Shown here piece by piece: positions 673-42,117 of a stretch of 42,243 nucleotides of DNA. The stretch's first letter is position 1. Every line of letters begins with the position of its first letter. The notes beneath the pieces were generated by a model. That model was not told the DNA's origin and made no database searches. It was given only the letters and a program-made list of their open reading frames with translations. The DNA is taken from positions 1-42,243 of the IMG/VR virus record IMGVR_UViG_3300028559_000077. One strand, given 5' to 3'. Source of the DNA: a virus. Made by a program: the position numbers and the translations under genes.

Positions 673-2130
673 ATGAAGTTTCGTTATGAACCAAACACAG
701 AAGAACTTGTTGTGTCAGATGCAACAAGAGTTGAATATCACCAAATGAATATATGGCTAACCCGACATGTTAAGGGTTATAGATATATGCCGGCTTTCAA
801 AATGGGTGTTTGGAATGGTCAGAATTCATATTTTAGAAATGGTAGAATAAATCTTGGTCTTTGGAAAGAATGTTTTAATGGTTGTAAAGAGATAGAAGTT
901 CCGTTTGTTATTGAGAATAAAGAAGACTTTCCTATAAATAGAGATATTAGTCTTGATAAAGTTAAAGACTTTTGTAAAGAATTTTTTAAAGATCATAAAG
1001 TTAAGAATAAACAAGGTGAGTGGATACCGTTCACACCCTATGATCACCAAGTAGATGCTGCTTATAAAATACTTAAAAATAGATTTTGTATGGCTGAGGT
1101 TGCAACTTCTGGTGGAAAATCGCTAATTATATCAATAGTTATATTTTACACTTTAAAGAATCTAAAAGAAGATTCTAAATTTTTACTTATTGTTCCATCA
1201 ATTACCTTAGTTACACAATTCTATGATAATATAATAGAGTATAATCAAGGAATAAACAGACTTTCAAATAAAGAAGTCAATGAAAATGGTTGTGATATAA
1301 GAATAGAAGAAGTTATGTCTGATAAACCACGAAAATATTCTGGAACTGAAAATCCAAATATCTACATAGGTACATATCAATCATTAGAGAAATGGCCTAA
1401 ACAATTTTTTCAACAATTTCATACAGTTGCTTGTGATGAGGCTCACGGTGCTAAAGCAAAAACTATAACTGGGATTCTACACAAAACATTTGGTTCTGCT
1501 TATTCAAGATTTGGAGTTTCTGGTACTTTTCCACCAGATGAATCTTGTGAAATATTAACAATACAATCTGTTTTAGGACCTAAAATAACCGAAGTTTCTG
1601 CAAGTGAATTAAAAGAAAAGGGTATTATCACACCAATGGAAGTTAAAGTCGTTGTTATGAACCATCAAGACTTGGATTATGGTGAAAGACTTGAGTATAT
1701 AAAGAGAAGTGGTATGGGTAAGGAAGCTTTAGAATTAGAAAAAAGCTTTATACACGAATCAGATAAAAGATTAAATTTTATTAAAAAAATTGTTGAGAAA
1801 TGTGATAAAAATACACTTATTCTTTTTCATAGTATTGAATATGGGCATAAGATTCTTAATAAATTAAAAAATGAAATCACCGATAAAGACTTTTTCTATA
1901 TTGATGGTGAAGTTAGAAATAAAGAAAGAGAAGCTATTAAGAAGTTTATGGAAGAAACTAAAATAAAAGTAGAATTCACTATTTTAAATTTTGGAGATTA
2001 TGAATTAGATTTTGAATCAGATATGAATATTTTACTGAGTAATGGTAAATTCAAAAAAGCAAAAGAAATAACACCTGAAGATGATATAGATGATAAGTTT
2101 TTAAAGAACTATAAAAAAAATAAAAAATAA
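673..2130 (+). CDS. uvsW: UvsW-type DNA helicase, 5' part of a split gene
   Basis: This is an SF2 helicase of the T4 UvsW kind, an ATP-dependent enzyme that unwinds and branch-migrates recombination and stalled-fork intermediates. Walker A (ATSGGKS) is at residues 144-150, motif II DEAH at 255-258, motif III-like SGT near 282, and the second RecA lobe begins near 370. The helicase sequence runs to about residue 431 (EETKI). The remaining 54 residues are foreign: NILLSNGKFKKAKEITPEDD resembles the strand pattern of Hint/intein or homing-endonuclease-associated domains, but lacks a catalytic Cys or His. T4 UvsW is about 500 residues, so the lobe carrying motifs V and VI is missing here. It lies at 2564-2827 in another frame. 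Whether the product is functional, trans-spliced or dead cannot be told from sequence. Confidence 0.9.
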   Translation: MKFRYEPNTEELVVSDATRVEYHQMNIWLTRHVKGYRYMPAFKMGVWNGQNSYFRNGRINLGLWKECFNGCKEIEVPFVIENKEDFPINRDISLDKVKDFCKEFFKDHKVKNKQGEWIPFTPYDHQVDAAYKILKNRFCMAEVATSGGKSLIISIVIFYTLKNLKEDSKFLLIVPSITLVTQFYDNIIEYNQGINRLSNKEVNENGCDIRIEEVMSDKPRKYSGTENPNIYIGTYQSLEKWPKQFFQQFHTVACDEAHGAKAKTITGILHKTFGSAYSRFGVSGTFPPDESCEILTIQSVLGPKITEVSASELKEKGIITPMEVKVVVMNHQDLDYGERLEYIKRSGMGKEALELEKSFIHESDKRLNFIKKIVEKCDKNTLILFHSIEYGHKILNKLKNEITDKDFFYIDGEVRNKEREAIKKFMEETKIKVEFTILNFGDYELDFESDMNILLSNGKFKKAKEITPEDDIDDKFLKNYKKNKK

Positions 2131-2182
2131 TCTACTGGGGGATAATCTCTCAAAAGAACAGAGGATTAATTTCAAAGATAAA

Positions 2183-2485
2183 ATGACTATTATAAATAAA
2201 GATAAAAACAAAAGAGAAGATGCTGGGAAAAAAATAAAAAAACTTTGGATAGATGATGAATATTTAGAAAAAATGAAAAATAGAAAACATCGAGCAGGTA
2301 AAAAAATTAAAATTATAAAACCTAACGGTGAAGAAATTATTTTCGAAACAATGTGTGAGATAGAGAGAGAATACAATTTTAGTAAACATTTTGTCAGAAA
2401 ATACAGAGATAAAAATTTACAAGTAGAAGAAAAACATTTAAATGAAAATAAACAACTCTTGGGTTGCATAATAGAAAGTATATAA
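2183..2485 (+). CDS. Homing-endonuclease C-terminal remnant (NUMOD-type)
   Basis: This 100-residue ORF lies inside the insertion that splits the helicase gene. It has a KMKNRKH segment followed by KIKIIKPNGEEIIF, then a helix-turn-helix-like stretch and a closing LLGCIIESI. That arrangement matches the DNA-binding tail (NUMOD modules) of phage GIY-YIG and HNH homing endonucleases. No nuclease motif is present, so the catalytic half has been lost or never came along. The sequence between 2131 and 2182 does not rejoin it to the upstream ORF in any frame I can see. It is probably non-functional, or a stand-alone DNA-binding relic. Confidence 0.6.
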   Translation: MTIINKDKNKREDAGKKIKKLWIDDEYLEKMKNRKHRAGKKIKIIKPNGEEIIFETMCEIEREYNFSKHFVRKYRDKNLQVEEKHLNENKQLLGCIIESI

Positions 2486-2560
2486 ATGGCTAAAATATTA
2501 GACAAAAGGAAAGAAATTAGAGAAAAGGAGGCGACTAAAATATTAGTCGCCTCCTATTAG
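2486..2560 (+). other. 24-codon mini-ORF re-encoding the helicase motif V edge
   Basis: This ORF starts right after the homing-endonuclease remnant. Its last residues, EATKILVASY, are the strand that should precede GTLSTGVS in UvsW helicases, yet it ends in TAG followed by TAA. The next codon (2564) begins GTLSTGVS in the same frame, so two stop codons sit exactly inside motif V. Its earlier part (DKRKEIREKEATKI) also looks like a diverged copy of the region ending exon 1 (NKEREAIKKFMEETKI). It may be a coconverted or duplicated exon end. Independent translation is unproven. Confidence 0.6.
2527..2554 (+). repeat. Perfect 11-bp hairpin over motif V codons
   Basis: GGAGGCGACTA and TAGTCGCCTCC flank a six-base AAATAT loop. 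It is far more GC-rich than its surroundings and ends four bases before the TAG-TAA pair. There is no T-run after it, so it is not a standard terminator. It could stall ribosomes, mask a start, or be a by-product of the ILVAS codons. Confidence 0.85.
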
Positions 2561-2563
2561 TAA

Positions 2564-2827
2564 GGAACATTATCCACAGGAGTCTCAATAAATGCTATAT
2601 TTAATGTAATATTTGCAGATTCATTTAAATCAGAACAAATTATTATCCAATCAATAGGTCGTGCATTAAGACTACACGAAGAAAAGAAGACCGCTTTAAT
2701 TTTCGACTTGGTCGATGTTTTCACACACGATAATCCTAAGAATACTCTGTTCAGACATTTCAAAGAAAGGGAAAAATTCTATATCAAAAGAAAATACCCA
2801 TACACTTTAACTAAAATCAATCTTTAG
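2564..2827 (+). pseudogene. uvsW: UvsW-type helicase, 3' part (motifs V-VI)
   Basis: The frame opens with GTLSTGVSINAIFNVIF (motif V), continues to IIIQSIGRALRLHEEKK (motif VI, with the arginine finger) and ends KYPYTLTKINL, much like the C-terminus of T4 UvsW. It has no start codon of its own and is in a different frame from the 5' part. Two stop codons precede it directly. It is clearly the missing C-terminal lobe of the helicase at 673. Expression would need splicing, bypass or initiation from an unusual codon. It converges with and overlaps the stop of the next minus-strand gene by three bases. Confidence 0.85.
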
Positions 2828-4461
2828 ACCACATCTCTTCCTTCTAGTAAAGTATAGTTAAATTTATTTCCGTGTTTTGTTATGTGATATCTAGCGTATT
2901 CGATTAATTGCTTATAATCTGCCTCTTTAGAAAAGACTTGACATCCCTCAGACCAAGTATCAACAGTTACACCACCGCCAAATCCTCTATGTATCAACAT
3001 ACCGGAAGATGTATCTAAGTTTTTTAAAGCAGTACTTTTGTTGCTAAAAGTAATAATATCAGAATTCCAATTTTGATCTCTATAGGTATATTGTCCTCCA
3101 TTAACCATAAAAAATGGACTTTCCCAAAAACCCTTTTTACCAGGAACTGCTTCTTCGAGTCTGTAGATATCTCTATATTGACCTGGAACCATAATTCCCA
3201 ATCCTTGAGCTCTTTGGGGTTTATTAGTTTTAGGGTCAATTGAAATACACCATTCTTTCATAGTTTGCTTAGGTCTAAATCCATGATATAAACCTGGAAT
3301 TGTAGAAATCGCCCAGTTCTGTGACTGCCACTTACCAGCATCGTCCTTCCAAATAGCCCACATCCTATCTTTAAATACATTACTATATTTTTCCCCCTCA
3401 TATTGATTTCTAATTCCAACTAGATTAATATAGTACGGGGTTTCAACAATTTTATAAAACTCACCTTTACTATTTTTTTTCTTTCTCATGGCTGTGAGTA
3501 TTTTCTCTACATTGGTATTTACCTCCGGAGTTGGTGGTAATGGTGTTGCTAGAGATGTTTGAGGAACACCATCCGTTGGTGATAATGAACCAGCAGTTCC
3601 ATCAGAATTTACAGCAGATGGTGTCTCTGTACCATTTCCATCTTTTGGTGTATTAATTGGATCACTCTTCGCTTCTGTTTTTAAAGTTTGTACCGTTGTT
3701 TTTATATTATCACCAACTTGTGGATCATTTATTCTCAAATTAGCATCACGAGCAGTATCATTTTTAATACTCGTAATCGCCTCATTATCATTCATGTATA
3801 TATTTTGTGATAGAAATTTAGGATTTTTTAAAACTTGATACTCTTGACATATTTTTATCAGTACGGGTGACGGTAATGTTGGTGTTGCTGGTGGTAAAGT
3901 TTGTAAATATGCTGGACCTTGTGAACCCATTAATACCTGAATAAATCTATCAAACCAATTTAAAAAATTAGTACCTAATATAGATTGTTGATCAGGATGA
4001 GCATCTCCTATATTTATTTTACCAAAATTATCTTTTAGATTTAAATTAATTTCATCCTCAGTTATATTAATATTATTAAACTTATAGTCTATTTTAAGAC
4101 CCTCTTGATCATTCACATAAATTTGAGATTTATGATCAAATAGTACAGACTTCATAGAAGTATAGTTTTTACCGGATAAAGATTTGAGTTTCTTCTCTAA
4201 ATTAACATTATAAAACTCAGAATATATATACTCTGGCTTATAAATATTACCCGAATCAAATACAACAGTGACAGCTTTACCAATTTCTGGTAAATTAAAT
4301 CCATTTCCATTTAAATCCTTCCAAGGACTTGCCCATGGAATATCAGCAACAGGCATTTCATCAAATACACCGATTACACGAACCTTGCACCTACCGTTTT
4401 TATTAGGATCTTCATTATTTTGAATAATCCCTATATATGTTTTCCCTTGTTCTACTGTCAT
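2824..4461 (-). CDS. gp5-like baseplate spike with C-terminal cell-wall domain
   Basis: This 545-residue protein belongs at the tip of the contractile tail. Residues 1-100 read as the Gp5/VgrG OB-fold (IGIIQNNEDPNKNGRCKVRV, then a PWASP segment and KAVTVVFDSG). A middle region has short beta repeats (NINITEDEINLNLKDNFGKI), followed by a Pro/Thr-rich linker to about 320. The last 200 residues form a globular domain with LIHRGFGGG (H491) and TWSEGCQVF (C507). The His plus S-x-G-C pattern is that of L,D-transpeptidase/YkuD-like domains, so peptidoglycan binding or cutting during injection is inferred. T4 gp5 carries a lysozyme domain instead. Four bases separate it from the upstream baseplate gene, so they are probably cotranscribed. 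Confidence 0.8.
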   Translation of the reverse strand: MTVEQGKTYIGIIQNNEDPNKNGRCKVRVIGVFDEMPVADIPWASPWKDLNGNGFNLPEIGKAVTVVFDSGNIYKPEYIYSEFYNVNLEKKLKSLSGKNYTSMKSVLFDHKSQIYVNDQEGLKIDYKFNNINITEDEINLNLKDNFGKINIGDAHPDQQSILGTNFLNWFDRFIQVLMGSQGPAYLQTLPPATPTLPSPVLIKICQEYQVLKNPKFLSQNIYMNDNEAITSIKNDTARDANLRINDPQVGDNIKTTVQTLKTEAKSDPINTPKDGNGTETPSAVNSDGTAGSLSPTDGVPQTSLATPLPPTPEVNTNVEKILTAMRKKKNSKGEFYKIVETPYYINLVGIRNQYEGEKYSNVFKDRMWAIWKDDAGKWQSQNWAISTIPGLYHGFRPKQTMKEWCISIDPKTNKPQRAQGLGIMVPGQYRDIYRLEEAVPGKKGFWESPFFMVNGGQYTYRDQNWNSDIITFSNKSTALKNLDTSSGMLIHRGFGGGVTVDTWSEGCQVFSKEADYKQLIEYARYHITKHGNKFNYTLLEGRDVV

Positions 4462-41820: not shown

Positions 41821-41843
41821 AATTTTTTATTTTTTAAAGATTG

Positions 41844-41929
41844 TAACTCAGGAGGGATTTGAACCCTCGTTGTGCTTTCGCAATCCGATTAAGAGTCGGA
41901 GCCGTTCGACCAGCTACGGGAACTGAGTT
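41844..41929 (-). tRNA. tRNA with Lys anticodon CUU and long variable arm
   Basis: Acceptor AACTCAG/CTGAGTT, anticodon arm TCCGA-CTCTTAA-TCGGA (CUU), T-arm GAGGG-TTCAAAT-CCCTC and A73. The variable region is 15 bases with a small stem (TGC-GAAA-GCA), unlike the five-base loop of normal lysine tRNAs. The feature includes the discriminator base. CCA is not encoded. Confidence 0.85.
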
Positions 41930-41934
41930 ATTGG

Positions 41935-42021
41935 TGATCCGGGTGGGACTCGAACCCACGGTTGAGAACATTATCTCTACTGGTTAAAAGCCAGTTTCTA
42001 TAGCCACTAAGAGACCGGATC
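41935..42021 (-). tRNA. tRNA with Lys anticodon UUU and long variable arm
   Basis: Acceptor GATCCGG/CCGGATC, D-stem TCT/AGA, anticodon arm ACTGG-CTTTTAA-CCAGT (UUU) and T-arm GTGGG-TTCGAGT-CCCAC. A 19-base variable region holds GAGA/TCTC. A73 is followed by an encoded CCA (41932-41934). The class II shape is unusual for lysine. Confidence 0.85.
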
Positions 42022-42033
42022 GTTTTTATTTTG

Positions 42034-42117
42034 TCCGTCCGGTAGAATTCGAATCTACGATGTCCTAATGGATCCAGTTTAAAAGACTGGCGGTTTCAGC
42101 CACTCACCCACGGACGG
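42034..42117 (-). tRNA. tRNA with Lys anticodon UUU and long variable arm (second)
   Basis: Acceptor CCGTCCG/CGGACGG, T8-G9, D-stem GGT/ACC, anticodon arm CCAGT-CTTTTAA-ACTGG (UUU), a 15-base variable region with TCC-ATTA-GGA, T-arm GTAGA-TTCGAAT-TCTAC and A73. The feature includes the discriminator base. It differs in sequence from the preceding UUU tRNA, so it is not a recent duplicate. Confidence 0.85.

Follow-up and report, generated by a model that had tools for sequence, protein, structure and literature searches.

Phage uvsW helicase genes split by a homing-endonuclease element, with a hairpin-linked coding gap and a proposed translational bypass

The split uvsW locus and its relatives

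The window, a 42,243-nucleotide (nt) stretch of viral DNA (IMG/VR record IMGVR_UViG_3300028559_000077), contained a gene for the DNA-repair helicase UvsW at positions 673–2827 of the plus strand, which was split in two by an insertion (Table 1). The first open reading frame (ORF, 673–2130) encoded the helicase in frame 1 up to position 1965, where it ended with ACT AAA ATA (T-K-I), and then ran through a tail to a stop codon. A mini-ORF (2486–2557) carried the helicase residues ILVASY missing from the N-half, since uninterrupted relatives read KVLVASYGTLSTG without a break. The mini-ORF was in frame with the C-half, with only TAG TAA between them, and from 2564 on the same frame read GTLSTGVSINAIFNVIFADSFKSEQIIIQSIGRALRL (GTLSTGVSIN...) up to the TAG at 2825–2827. 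This head of the C-half gene was conserved and contained many charged residues, and its ATG directly followed the TAA of the endonuclease remnant (TAA-ATG). No ATG, GTG or TTG was present upstream of C-half codon 49 in the window. The same insertion was found at the same site across lineages (numbered with an L), and 15 of them, including the window, were gapped. All 15 combined a hairpin, a TAY codon, a stop codon, a gap of 4, 6, 7 or 17 nt, a GGN codon and an intact helicase. The best GenBank phage matches of the window were uncultured phages of 634–642 kb.

Table 1. Features of the split uvsW gene in the window. pn and ps, nonsynonymous and synonymous differences per site.
Feature	Position	Strand	Remarks
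UvsW helicase N-half	673–1965	+	431 codons; DEAD/ResIII domain; Pfam DEAD 1.2e-14; 87% identity to uninterrupted L002
Repeat ACTAAAATA, copy 1	1957–1965	+	T-K-I, final helicase codons before the insertion; copy 2 at 2534–2542
In-frame N-half tail KVEFTILNFGDYELDFESDMNILLSNGKFKKAKEITPEDDIDDKFLKNYKKNKK and stop	1966–2130	+	Nine lineages share 18 invariant columns; median pn/ps over 11 lineages, 0.31
Homing-endonuclease remnant (ORF 2183–2485)	2147–2485	+	C-terminal part only; HNH nuclease half missing
C-half gene head MAKILDKRKEIREKEATKILVASY	2486–2557	+	Homologue of the beginning of the C-half ORF, uninterrupted in L010/L014; head pn/ps median 0.22
13-base-pair hairpin AGGAGGCGACTAA-AATA-TTAGTCGCCTCCT	2526–2555	+	3' arm forms helicase codons L-V-A-S
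Proposed take-off codon TAT (Tyr)	2555–2557	+	TAY in 15/15 gapped lineages
Coding gap TAG TAA	2558–2563	+	Two stops; same gap in distant phage L129; 4, 7 or 17 nt in other lineages
Proposed landing triplet TAA	2561–2563	+	Within the coding gap
UvsW C-half	2564–2827	+	87 codons and TAG (2825–2827); resumes at GGA; pn 0.06, ps 0.71 vs L002

A first-pass annotation had placed the break of the helicase at 1965 and its resumption at 2564 in another frame, and both were present. The NUMOD-type remnant without a nuclease that it described was a 100-residue segment matching the C-terminal third of an HNH homing endonuclease. Its claim of a uvsW gene split by an insertion with such a remnant was also supported, and uninterrupted homologues exist (L002, N-half 87% identical). 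It saw the split but overlooked the hairpin and the conserved stop and gap, and although its mini-ORF exists, it had missed that this ORF heads a separate C-half gene. The nine-base direct repeat it reported is real but commonplace in the AT-rich window (four copies vs 2.5 expected), and both copies simply encode the helicase residues T-K-I. Loss of the DNA between the repeats, which had been suggested to nearly restore the gene, would not do so because TAG TAA would remain. Repeat assemblies of three lineages (five, two and three contigs) make an assembly artefact unlikely, and the identical TAGTAA gap in two very different phages, the window and L129, also counts against it. The layout is not a product of chance: 15 lineages share it. 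Neither the window's own record nor 15 related ones, all of them fragments, yielded a second uvsW.

The lineages were collected by scans of viral contigs with the N-half, the C-half, the tail, the hairpin pattern, the head pattern and the endonuclease, and by one scan of genome contigs; their counts depend on the content of IMG/VR and GTDB. The gap types TGAGGAC, TGAC and TAGTAA each recurred in very different phages (Table 2). No single frameshift explains the gaps because their lengths fall in all three frames, and the gap of the window and L129 consists of two stops in the 0 frame.

Table 2. Take-off codon, gap and resume codon in the gapped lineages.
Lineage	Take-off codon	Gap	Resume codon	Remarks
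Window	TAT	TAGTAA	GGA	
L058 and L051	TAC	TGAGGAC	GGT	
L056	TAC	TGAGCCCCAGGGAGTAA	GGT	17-nt gap
L057	TAT	TGAC	GGT	
L064	TAC	TGAGAAC	GGT	
L076	TAT	TGAGTAC	GGG	Five contigs
L065	TAC	TGAGTAG	GGT	Two contigs
L097	TAC	TGAGTAC	GGC	
L121	TAT	TGAGGAC	GGA	
L124	TAT	TAGGTGC	GGT	
L125	TAT	TGAC	GGA	
L126	TAT	TGAGGTC	GGA	Three contigs
L129	TAT	TAGTAA	GGA	
L163	TAT	TGAGGAC	GGC	

Gapless split genes, in which the C-half head had its own ATG, were found in L010/L014, L164, L166, Vibrio phage D506 and LIMEstone1. In gapless L031 everything was fused into one ORF of 606 residues; the predicted structure of this fusion was of low confidence in the insert and was not used. When cultured phages were searched for the gapped form, only gapless ones turned up, namely D506 without an endonuclease and Dickeya phage LIMEstone1 with I-LimI between the halves. 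The two annotated DNA helicase genes of D506 (L182, OZ195882.1 14129–15891) are the uvsW halves, overlap by ATGA and offer a tractable gapless comparison.

Hairpin, selection and mobility

The hairpin of the window was perfectly paired and ended in the Tyr codon. In an alignment of 11 sequences (ten gapped, one gapless), 96.5% of the cells were paired and five pairs were changed on both sides, a result that none of 500 shuffles equalled. When the partner was slid by 1–3 columns, pairing fell to 36–56%. Random synonymous recodings of the same peptide were equally stable in 0–12 of 1000 cases for gapped lineages, and in 177, 516, 920, 647 and 855 of 1000 for the gapless L014, L164, L166, D506 and LIMEstone1, respectively. 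The fold of gapless L031 reached only −3.9 kcal/mol, and the mean for uninterrupted genes was −4.3 kcal/mol. Such a hairpin was present in 15/15 gapped vs 0/6 gapless lineages (Fisher 1.8e-5, which is a guide only since the lineages are related). The hairpin of the window also scored as a terminator on the minus strand, next to a convergent gene at 2824–4461.

Judged from substitution patterns, the C-halves are under purifying selection. The pn/ps of the C-half was 0.15–0.30 among nine lineages (eight gapped, one gapless), with synonymous sites near saturation. When the window was compared with L002, the N-half gave pn 0.076 and ps 0.64, and the constraint on the C-half was not relaxed relative to it.

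The endonuclease remnant of the window shared 55% identity with residues 223–322 of the intact HNH ORF of L051. Intact HNH ORFs lay inside the split uvsW of L051, L057, L121, L124–L126 and L129. Those of L051, L057 and L121 matched PHROG 12434 (HNH endonuclease) and PHROG 655 (homing endonuclease), and the GenBank relatives of the intact endonucleases included MobD- and MobE-like proteins. Minimal forms with tail, head and gap but no endonuclease were represented by L058, L056 and L097. All full-length endonuclease relatives examined lay in uvsW, and a scan with the head pattern for the element in other genes gave nothing beyond chance matches outside uvsW. In several lineages (window, L057, LIMEstone1) the stop codon of the endonuclease directly adjoins or overlaps the ATG of the head, so that coupled initiation of the C-half gene is plausible.

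A tree of 51 N-halves, 12 of them split, required 11 changes of the split state, of which well-supported branches forced no fewer than 10, and L002, the sister of the window (87%), was uninterrupted. As reconstructed on this tree, the split state shows repeated gain, loss or both.

Decayed copies of the C-half start were seen in two further loci. The insertion at L007:5482–6279 carried an ADP-ribosyltransferase-like ORF ending in NGTLTTGVSVNFIYRI*, a decayed C-half-start copy, directly before an HNH ORF, and a similar copy lay ahead of an HNH fragment at L010:5466–5520. In L164 and L166, around 3850–3900, the endonuclease ORF stood in a split uvsW without gap or hairpin, and the target codons read ASSNC or ASSGC, not ASYGT, which is possibly another escape from the endonuclease.

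Proposed bypass and competing explanations

A Mob-type HNH homing-endonuclease gene is proposed to have inserted into the uvsW stretch encoding the conserved TKVLVASYGTLSTG. The insertion would have left uvsW as two genes: the N-half would have gained a tail, and the C-half would have acquired an ATG and a short head. The endonuclease of the window would have decayed afterwards. In most lineages, translation of the C-half would meet the short gap, stop codon first, directly after the Tyr codon of VLVASY. The Tyr-tRNA in the P site would release the mRNA while the stop codon occupies the A site, and the hairpin just behind would refold and pull the mRNA forward; each nucleotide of this slide could free one base of the 3' arm for pairing. 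The Tyr-tRNA would then re-pair loosely with the triplet preceding GGN, and in-frame decoding would resume as ...LVASY-GTLSTG..., with the junction peptide VLVASYGTLSTG. The two pieces would come together as a single helicase. An allele bearing the element would probably be protected by the gap and the recoded exon against the endonuclease it encodes, a role also proposed for T4 mobA/gene 60. What the sequences themselves show is the split, the conserved tail and head, a hairpin kept with covariation and tied to the gap, purifying selection on the C-half, and repeated gain or loss; the bypass, the landing triplet, the joining of the halves and the protection are inferred from them.

It is considered likely that a mobile element split uvsW, that the C-half is made by translational bypassing and that the helicase works in two pieces. 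With some reserve, a broader proposal is also favoured, in which a widespread mobile 'stop-hop' cassette travelled with the homing endonuclease into the uvsW of many phage groups. Its bypass would cover only 4–17 nt and would be driven by a Tyr take-off codon and the 5' hairpin next to it. The gap consists of two in-frame stops in the window and L129 and of 17 nt in L056, and the +1 frame of L065 meets TAG; one bypass mechanism would fit all gaps. The predicted landing triplet could form two or more of the three possible pairs with tRNA-Tyr in 14/15 lineages (8/9 distinct gaps), where 0.33 was expected per gap (binomial 1e-3, for a test chosen after the data had been seen).

Several points weigh against the bypass. 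Full pairing between take-off and landing codons is limited to L076 and L097; the window (TAT/TAA) has two of three pairs and L126 one of three. The hairpin touches the take-off codon, whereas the 5' stem loop of T4 lies about 13 nt upstream. No stem loop was present in the gap, which at 4–7 nt is too short for one in 14/15 lineages, and the T4 KKYK motif was absent. Moreover, 12/15 gaps have a length of 1 mod 3, and the +1 frame is open in 11 of these. The insertion in the window may be recent and its own C-half newly dead, and the lineages are not fully independent.

Programmed +1 frameshifting at TAY-TGA, as in prfB, is an unlikely substitute for the hop. The T of the stop would be skipped and GAG NNC (GAC in 4-nt gaps) read before GGN, which would add one or two residues and give, for example, VLVASYEDGTLSTG. 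The +1 frame was open in 11/15 gaps, TGA came first in 12/15, and +1 shifts can be stimulated by 5' stem loops (PMC5009743). However, this route is impossible in four lineages: the 6-nt gap of the window and L129 has TAG TAA in frame, the 17 nt of L056 lead into the wrong frame, and the +1 frame of L065 contains TAG. In addition, tRNA-Tyr would make only one of three pairs at the +1 codon, and the extra residues would enter a strongly conserved helicase segment. It is rather improbable that gapped phages have a dead or dying C-half, with stops and frameshifts as decay after homing and the window helicase as a pseudogene. The degenerate endonuclease of the window and the bar that TAG TAA sets to simple reading agree with decay, but purifying selection on the C-halves, a stop at the same codon in 15/15 lineages, gap types recurring in distant phages and a hairpin kept with covariation all speak against it.

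A solution at the RNA level, in which the insertion, the gap or both are taken out by RNA processing or by an intron of an undescribed kind, would accommodate the gap and hairpin, and the LIMEstone authors called their uvsW case a putative intron (PMC3296691). Such a solution is nevertheless very improbable. Neither the window nor six related loci contained an Rfam intron, several homologues have two complete ORFs, the gap would remain after removal of the insertion, and the only coding sequence for VLVASY lies in the C-half gene, downstream of that gene's ATG. The minus-strand score of the hairpin beside the convergent gene speaks for a transcription terminator or DNA-level element, with the C-half starting at a non-standard codon. 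There is hardly any chance of this, as the plus strand lacks a T run, the hairpin keeps a fixed position to the Tyr-stop codons despite different neighbours and is absent where the gap is absent, and the window, L058, L064 and L076 have no ATG, GTG or TTG ahead of codon 35 of the C-half.

The first-pass annotation had also suggested an intron, a broken intein and a Hint-like tail. The intron was not supported, on the grounds given above. The Rfam scan of the window yielded tRNAs only. Three tRNA-Lys calls in the window, at 41843–42117, were 85–90 nt, unusually long for Lys, and their anticodon or type assignment may be odd. The intein was rejected: the N-terminal and C-terminal splicing residues were absent, the tail starts with K-V-E and the C-half junction lacks His-Asn, and a genuine intein in L056 was detected by Pfam. 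The tail itself was present and conserved, but its likeness to Hint was weak, with a probability of 52% over 31 columns in a single hhalign comparison with the L056 intein, no Pfam Hint match and no meaningful Pfam or PDB match. The L056 intein (1252–3194), a second mobile element, lay within uvsW as well, at its Walker B region, with Intein_splicing/Hint at about 1e-8 and a TnsA-like endonuclease, and L124 (835–2946) and L125 (1328–2966) appear by sequence to carry a Walker B-region uvsW intein too. Reassignment of stop codons was rejected as well: all three stops still terminate because C-halves of different lineages end with TAG, TGA or TAA. An independent start of the C-half was likewise rejected, given that the window has no ATG, GTG or TTG ahead of codon 49.

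Significance and comparison with known systems

The split of uvsW is already known from the LIMEstone phages, as a putative intron, and no report of the gapped form or of a bypass in it was found among open-licence papers. T4 gene 60 has so far been the main example of efficient bypassing in phages, with Streptomyces phage Hau3 listed as a likely further case, and natural in-frame stop-hops were described as unknown (PMC5009743). If the bypass is real, some 15 lineages with varied hairpins, gap lengths and landing triplets would allow its requirements to be revealed by comparison. Bypass gaps as self-protection of homing-endonuclease alleles would also become testable: gaps and hairpins go together, and gapless relatives have neither. 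In annotation, such helicase genes would be labelled truncated or pseudogenes.

One similar system is that of LIMEstone1, whose uvsW split by I-LimI was described as a putative intron in 2012 (PMC3296691). It shares the gene, the site, the kind of tail, an HNH endonuclease and a short ATG-headed C-half with the window, but it has neither gap nor hairpin. The gapless two-ORF form argues for a split gene rather than an intron. In Aeh1 nrdA/mobE, a homing endonuclease likewise splits an essential gene and the pieces reassemble (PMC2988022), although the gene is different and a bypass gap was not reported there. The bypass elements of Magnusiomyces capitatus also comprise many short gaps, some with two of three take-off and landing pairs, but they are mitochondrial, reportedly seem independent of mRNA context and have no obligate hairpin (PMC5009743).

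The T4 region has the order gene 39, mobA remnant, gene 60.1 and gene 60 with its 50-nt gap, and GGA-TAG...GGA was confirmed in the T4 sequence. In both systems, a Mob-type HNH homing-endonuclease remnant separates the two parts of an enzyme gene, and the C-part gene is broken early by a gap whose first codon, next to the take-off codon, is a stop. Both also have a stem loop on the 5' side of take-off and conserved coding sequence beyond a gap that no single frameshift explains. In T4 gene 60, refolding of the 5' stem loop is believed to draw the mRNA along (PMC5009743, PMC11194080); the uvsW hairpin is stronger and adjacent to take-off. The uvsW system differs in encoding a helicase rather than a topoisomerase, in a gap of 4–17 rather than 50 nt that lacks a stem loop, in a leader of 24 rather than 46 residues, in a TAY take-off with a loosely matching landing triplet instead of GGA/GGA, and in its occurrence in many lineages. 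By analogy, the uvsW system would work like T4 gene 60, but as a variant rather than a member of the T4 type, because exactly matched codons and a gap stem loop are absent in the window.
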